Shown here: piece by piece, positions 44,639 through 45,201 of the stretch | Layout of the letters: each line of letters starts with the position of its first letter | Numbering within the stretch: the stretch's first letter is position 1 | NCBI GenBank assembly: GCA_022703505.1 | Contig: JAKLDN010000002.1 | Span: forward strand, 434,001-498,000 | DNA length: 64,000 bases | Source: Spirochaetota bacterium | GTDB taxonomy: Bacteria > Spirochaetota > Spirochaetia > Treponematales > UBA12059 | Direction of reading: 5' to 3' | Notes under the pieces: generated by a model | The model's input: the letters and a program-made list of their open reading frames with translations, nothing else | The model's database searches: none | Told to the model about the DNA's origin: nothing | Translations under genes and position numbers: made by a program

Positions 44639-44722
44639 GCCCAGATGGTGAAATTGGCAAACACGCTAGATTCAGGTTCTAGTGCCCTAACCGGCTTGGG
44701 GGTTCAAGTCCCCCTCTGGGCA
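44639..44722 (+). tRNA. tRNA-Leu (anticodon CAG)
   Basis: 84 nt with the long variable arm of a class II tRNA. Acceptor GCCCAGA pairs with TCTGGGC, discriminator A. Anticodon stem CTAGA/TCTAG with loop TTCAGGT puts CAG at 44673-44675, reading CUG. T arm GGGGG-TTCAAGT-CCCCC. CCA is not encoded. Own promoter upstream and terminator directly downstream. Confidence 0.97.
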
Positions 44723-44751
44723 AAAAAACCGCCTTCAGGCGGTTTTTTTTT
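44723..44751 (+). terminator. tRNA-Leu terminator
   Basis: aaaaaaccgcc-ttca-ggcggtttttttt, an 11-bp stem with a long T run, starting at the tRNA 3' end. Confidence 0.95.
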
Positions 44752-45020
44752 GCCCGGAGGGGGACTTGTATCGCCCGCCGCCTCGGGCGGCGCCCTACAA
44801 TCCATACCTGGCGAGACCGGCAACGCAGGAGCCGGCAACGAGGGCTCGTCGCGAGCCGGCGAGCGCGAGGCGCAGGATGCCGTCGTGCGCGATAGCGCGC
44901 ATGTCAATTTGCTTCCTCTCGGCAAACGGAGCGAAGCGACGTATGCGCCGAGAGAGCCCGAGGCGGGCCGGAGCGACGAGGCAGGACGGCGAGGAGCGGA
45001 GGCCAAGTCCCCCTCTGGGC

Positions 45021-45050
45021 AAAAAGAGCTCCCTTTTGGGGGGCTTTTTT
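45021..45050 (+). terminator. Second terminator-like hairpin, after the tRNA-end copy
   Basis: aaaaagagctccc-tttt-ggggggctttttt, an imperfect stem with a T run, immediately after the direct copy of the tRNA 3' end. No tRNA body precedes it. Confidence 0.75.
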
Positions 45051-45201
45051 ATGCCGGGACCGGACGCCTCACTTGTGGCGGTAGGTTAATTCTTAGTATG
45101 GTAGATAAATAGGTGATCCGGCCGGTCCCGGTACAGGTTGAAGGCGATAGCCCCAGCGAATCCAGTGCCGCTCCGCCGCCCCGGACAAGGCTCACCGAAT
45201 T

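Follow-up and report, generated by a model that had tools for sequence, protein, structure and literature searches.

Gene-less structured units behind tRNA and tmRNA genes form a phylum-wide family in Spirochaetota

Among known systems, RtT of Escherichia coli (RF00391), which occupies a single locus, appears to be the nearest counterpart of the element that we describe here, by likeness of plan and with common membership unproven. In E. coli K-12, RtT is present as four units, of which one lies between tyrT and tyrV and three lie behind tyrV; the end of the unit is the 3' end of tRNA-Tyr, and its start is an inverted copy of the T stem. The groups of Landy and Kersten reportedly found that the tyrT repeats have a length of 178 bp and that an RNA is released from them. 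Two further classes of element share some features with our units. Islands inserted by tyrosine integrases also carry an att-like direct repeat of the tRNA 3' end and leave the host tRNA intact, and REP/REPIN sequences, which are moved by RAYT transposases, are likewise short, gene-less, hairpin-built and dispersed. Here we report that a segment behind a spirochaete tRNA-Leu gene belongs to a family of small structured elements without genes, which is found throughout the phylum Spirochaetota directly behind tRNA and tmRNA genes. The single-locus plan seen behind tRNA-Tyr in E. coli thus finds a much more widespread counterpart in a different phylum. A search of the open-licence literature returned no description of such units in spirochaetes.

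Anatomy of the unit behind tRNA-Leu(CAG)

The window, that is, the whole stretch of 64,000 nucleotides that was analysed, belongs to a genome of 3.66 Mb (G000), which we compared with a congener (G001) and with a member of another genus of the same family (G010). The host gene of the unit is tRNA-Leu(CAG) at 44639–44722, as identified by ARAGORN and by Rfam RF00005. This gene and all features of the unit are read on the forward strand, except for the inverted copy. By sequence comparison, the template of the copies is the tRNA 3' end from C56 of the T loop to the last base (D1, 44705–44722). Abutting the tRNA is a terminator hairpin (T1, 44722–44751), recognised as an inverted repeat composed of an A-run, a CCGCC/GGCGG stem and a T-run, which is also present in the congener. 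The tRNA end then recurs in inverted orientation with one mismatch (I, 44752–44768, reverse strand), followed by a structured body (B, 44769–45003), a direct copy that matches the tRNA 3' end exactly (D2, 45004–45021) and a second terminator (T2, 45021–45050). The inverted copy and D2 provide the 5' and 3' sides of the closing stem P1.

An earlier note on this DNA had described much of this arrangement from the letters alone. The exact direct copy that it reported 299 bp downstream is indeed there: positions 44705–44726 equal 45004–45025 over 22 bp, comprising the last 18 bases of the tRNA and four As, and a matched block of 47 nt with 77% identity runs through both terminators. The inverted copy after the first terminator is present as well, and the predicted long hairpin corresponds to a palindrome of tRNA end, terminator and inverted copy with 31-nt arms that are 87% complementary. 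A degenerate inverted copy that the note placed after the second terminator was not found with up to three mismatches allowed. After this terminator the congener does carry a genuine inverted copy, together with a further unit; the window may thus hold a decayed remnant.

Compared with the G001 unit behind the same tRNA, the window unit shows few base differences and two clean inserts of approximately 68 and 66 bp, which makes it an interrupted copy. The first insert (44769–44838) is a repeat of approximately 68 bp with the motif ACAATnnnTnCCT, and the second (44877–44942) is a CGTC-tagged, REP-like repeat of 66 bp; both are missing from the congener in the alignment. What is left of the body, a core made of 44839–44876 and 44943–45003, differs from the congener body by one base. 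A covariance model built for the family matched the window at 44828–45011 (G000:C7:478828-479011) with an E value of 3.7e-11.

Both inserts have relatives elsewhere. Inserts resembling the first were also seen at two further loci (L025, L031). The 66-bp insert resembles the CGTC-tagged palindromic repeats described in PMC3733652, and repeats of its type have further genomic copies, also away from tRNAs. These copies make up a second short repeat family of approximately 66–75 bp with CGTC-tagged hairpins and a conserved CAATCnTTTCCT...AAACG...CGTATGC pattern, which inserts into tRNA units and elsewhere in the genome. Examples are window 44877–44942, G000:C7:369630 (L090) and G000:C7:516326 (L091).

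Association with tRNA ends across the phylum

The layout of the units is constant: tRNA 3' end, terminator, inverted copy, body (approximately 100 nt), direct copy and, often, a terminator again. The inverted copy reaches from the tRNA end as far as the T loop, with GAA or GAACC as its last bases; the direct copy begins at T-loop C56. Body lengths range from approximately 100 to 240 nt, which is too short for an integrase gene. The host tRNA and its terminator are left intact by the unit. The earlier note also offered a possible effect on tRNA maturation; with its position behind the first terminator, the inverted copy would be transcribed only by read-through. In many outer lineages the inverted copy consists only of the T stem and loop (approximately 10 nt), and the end copy is not always full length. 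Tandem units occur at five of the loci (L023, L036, L053, L151, L183), and units without a terminator also exist, for example in L183.

To quantify the association, we compared the 350 nt downstream of each of the 44 tRNA genes in G000 with the gene's own 3' end, using the ends of the other tRNAs on the same sequence as a control. Inverted copies of the own end were found behind 14 of 44 tRNAs and direct copies also behind 14, with both present in 12 cases; approximately 0.3 inverted copies were expected. With the ends of other tRNAs the rates were 0.74% (inverted) and 1.7% (direct). This genome-wide comparison of own and other ends, 14 of 44 against 0.74%, excludes chance. The two relatives gave similar counts (G001: 15/44 inverted and 12/44 direct; G010: 11/41 and 10/41) at inverted control rates of 0.6–0.7%. 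When the segment itself was searched against G000, further matches appeared, many of them just downstream of other tRNA genes. The arrangement is thus not confined to tRNA-Leu, as it would be after a chance local duplication, and the finding of the unit behind other tRNAs, each time with the 3' end of the tRNA concerned, strongly supports the earlier suggestion of a repeat family built on tRNA ends.

The covariance model (R1) gave 50 matches among 98 loci, and a tRNA gene was present in 27 of the 30 best-match loci. Each of the 17 matches in G000 stands behind a tRNA gene or behind a tRNA 3' end that has been displaced. The three behind displaced ends follow two tRNA-Met-like 3' parts and one tRNA-Leu(GAG) 3' part, which were moved off by genomic islands. 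Because the large-scale searches were strictly filtered, their counts are lower bounds: at least 96 of 149 relatives from within the order and at least 81 of 393 genomes drawn across the phylum contain matches. Specificity was controlled by way of the tRNA association and a pattern scan. Among 60 further matches from many families, 52 lie behind a tRNA or tmRNA gene on the same strand, usually 20–80 nt away. A direct copy of the gene's own end accompanies 45 of these 52 (control 3.6%), and a high-scoring inverted copy of the own end accompanies 22 (control 1.2%). In at least six of the remaining eight, the preceding sequence is a tRNA 3' part. The pattern scan over approximately 85,000 species returned 38 stretches, all but four of which are a model match or lie in a unit-bearing genome, from spirochaetes or unnamed metagenome-assembled genomes. 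The four from outside the spirochaetes (L207, L219, L220, L230) have neither a tRNA nearby nor a model match, and we attribute them to chance.

Genomes contain up to approximately 17 copies, and nearly every kind of tRNA, as well as tmRNA, can serve as host. Some near-complete close relatives contain no unit at all, for example G009 (99% complete). The tmRNA genes that carry units downstream (L244, L263, L267, L276) share only the T-arm and acceptor end with tRNAs. Other reuse of tRNA ends was also seen. Behind tRNA-Cys of G010 (L143) lies a different tandem repeat (GGCGCCTCACGGCTGTGGTG...), in which the final tRNA bases (GGCGCCTC) are used again, and behind tRNA-Thr(GGT) of G000 (L069, 1018–1200) near-tandem copies of the tRNA-Thr 3' end (GATCGGGGGCT), with no recognisable body, precede an apparent rpmG.

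Of 33 units, 8 have a direct repeat that extends into or through the terminator (control 0.3%). A terminator at the centre of a near-palindrome, and often included in the direct repeat, is what one would expect if the units were by-products of DNA repair, in which the long palindrome of tRNA end and terminator would induce template switching and so produce inverted and direct copies with no dedicated element. The similar tandem copies at E. coli tyrT fit this idea too. We nevertheless consider it improbable, since it leaves unexplained why unrelated tRNAs across the phylum are followed by a shared conserved body, and how the units without a terminator in L183 arose.

Fold, inheritance and proposed origin

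Bodies behind different tRNAs share a fold. The closing stem P1, formed by the inverted and the direct copy, encloses two branches: the first contains two hairpins, and the second combines purine internal loops with a hairpin loop, for example CAGGATG or ACGAA. Across 14 aligned bodies from several different tRNAs and eight genomes, compensatory changes affect both sides in 20 of 28 pairs, and 93% of the cells pair. The covariation score of 0.577 compares with 0.175 ± 0.020 for shuffled alignments (0 of 500 as high) and with at most 0.137 for slid ones; this signal comes partly from P1, whose bases follow the tRNA, and the inner helices 2, 4, 5 and 6 contribute too. The fold is strand-specific, with conserved purine loops and internal loops. 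Rfam 15 gave no significant match to the unit at five unit loci, permissive search included.

Many of the hairpin loops contain GGA and others CGA, which invites comparison with sponges of the CsrB/RsmZ type. Loops such as CAGGATG and ACAGGAAGT look like CsrA sites, A(N)GGA is the sequence of many loops of P4 and P6, G000 and most genomes with units encode CsrA, and units are also missing from several relatives that lack CsrA. From these sequences one might propose that the units are CsrA-binding RNA sponges. However, many units carry ACGA loops with no GG, the absences are concentrated in one family and are thus confounded with descent, several unit-bearing genomes (incomplete assemblies) show no CsrA, and Rfam gives no significant Csr or Rsm match. 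We regard this function as very improbable.

A broader proposal, made for E. coli RtT, is that the unit is a functional RNA produced by read-through of the tRNA terminator and cut from the tRNA transcript. The inverted and direct copies would form a helix like that of the acceptor and T stems for tRNA-processing enzymes, and the body would be the working part. This reading accounts for the deep conservation of a strand-specific fold, for ends that follow the host tRNA, for the second terminator that often stands after D2 and for the clustering of bodies by tRNA isotype described below; moreover, RtT shares the plan and includes an annotated small RNA, rttR, in K-12. On the other hand, the unit sits behind the first terminator, its carrier can be any tRNA or none, whole genomes do without it, interrupted units persist, and units displaced by islands have lost the promoter and the 5' part of the tRNA. 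We regard a functional RNA as less probable than the mobile element favoured below, but as its chief competitor.

Comparison of related genomes indicates how units come and go. Behind tRNA-Glu(TTC) a unit is present in G000, and the site is empty in G001 and G010. At tRNA-Cys the body classes of G000 and G001 differ, with Cys ends in both. A single genome can also carry related bodies behind different tRNAs, each with matching own ends (Met/Leu in G001, Met/Pro in G365, Ser/Tyr in G063), and at one locus (L029) the body is reversed between its inverted and direct copies. Bodies interrupted by other elements persist, as in the window unit and in a tRNA-Gly unit that contains a RAYT gene. Across genomes, bodies cluster by tRNA isotype (0.363 versus 0.319 ± 0.008 permuted) and not by genome (0.316 versus 0.315), which implies that most copies either descended in place or passed from one species to the corresponding tRNA of another. 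At sites where the ends of orthologous tRNAs differ, the inverted copy has the host base in 307 of 328 cells and the base of the other species in 5; for the direct copy the host base occurs in 1359 cells and that of the other species in 214, where in both counts cells are not independent and some Ser units were counted more than once. A shared body with ends that follow the host poses a mechanistic puzzle, namely, the source of the inverted and direct copies of each new target.

At about even odds, we favour a non-autonomous element whose point of entry would be the T loop and whose ends would derive from the target. As signs of mobility we count the differences at tRNA-Glu(TTC) and tRNA-Cys, the related bodies behind different tRNAs, the reversed body, the tandem units and the direct repeats that extend into terminators, while the absence of units from some close relatives and the interrupted bodies point to dispensability. 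Such an element would be mobilised rarely, by a host enzyme or a passing one. A putative enzyme, or a repair process, would recognise the folded single strand of the body, and the target would be opened at the T loop of a tRNA-like end. Repair would then place a copy of the target 3' end, often including the terminator, on either side, inverted on one and direct on the other, and each new unit would thereby receive its ends from the target. Later, recombination between the direct repeats would multiply or shrink the copies. Against mobility we count that no enzyme could be tied to the unit, that bodies cluster by isotype, that conservation of the fold is equally expected of a functional RNA, and that the inverted copy is not always full length.

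Two candidate movers were considered and dismissed. A gene for a RAYT-type Y1 transposase lies inside the body of the tRNA-Gly(TCC) unit (L083, 680–1284; G000:C8:150375-150710), preceded by GGGACAGAGCTTGATnnnnATGCAAGC; similar GGGACAGAGCTC sequences occur close to the other RAYT genes whose flanks were read. This gene suggested RAYT as the mover. However, Y1/RAYT transposases are absent from five unit-rich, near-complete genomes (G006, G011, G013, G020, G031), of which G011 (99% complete) has 11 units and G031 (complete) has 7, both without Y1 (PF01797), and the five RAYT genes could not be tied to units. Reverse transcriptase was ruled out, because PF00078 is absent from G000, G001 and G010.

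Comparison with known systems

Like the spirochaete units, RtT forms a tandem array behind a tRNA, and each RtT unit ends in a direct copy of the 3' end (ATCCTTCCCCCACCACCA). The inverted T-stem copy at its start (GGGGAAGGAT) pairs with the end copy to give a closing stem of the same kind, and a hairpin with facing GA motifs (CGAGCGccAGCGAG) is common to RtT and many spirochaete bodies. Unlike the spirochaete units, RtT has a different inner fold, and in the one region of K-12 that was read it was seen at the tRNA-Tyr locus only. RF00391 matched none of 59 spirochaete genomes at an E value of 0.001, with the E. coli positive control matched, and none of five unit loci in a permissive search; the spirochaete model found nothing convincing at the E. 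coli RtT locus. Since neither model finds the loci of the other, we describe the relation to RtT as a resemblance in plan.

The units differ from tyrosine-integrase islands by their size of approximately 100–250 bp, their lack of genes, their extra inverted copy and an identity block that starts from the T loop. At the G000 islands in tRNA-Leu(GAG) and tRNA-Met, the identity blocks start near the anticodon or the variable arm. This is much further upstream than the start of the units, and the islands displace units instead of creating them, which speaks against a simple integration scar, another origin considered in the earlier note. These two islands (tRNA-Met, G000:C12:40600-80164; tRNA-Leu(GAG), G000:C1:212215-219416) shifted units, along with tRNA 3' remnants, by 7–40 kb. 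Behind tRNA-Leu(GAG) lies a fragment of an integrase-like ORF, for which a Pfam scan returned no match.

Finally, REP/REPIN sequences differ from the units, which are bound to tRNA ends, have ends apparently rewritten for each target and are also numerous in some genomes without RAYT. The family is widespread, has no counterpart in Rfam 15 and is probably a small mobile element. More tentatively, and with rather less confidence than for entry at the T loop itself, the units might represent a class of gene-less mobile elements whose terminal repeats would not travel with them but be formed anew from the end of the target tRNA at every move, under the guidance of a folded single strand and a putative enzyme, with E. 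coli RtT as either an isolated member of this class or a parallel invention.
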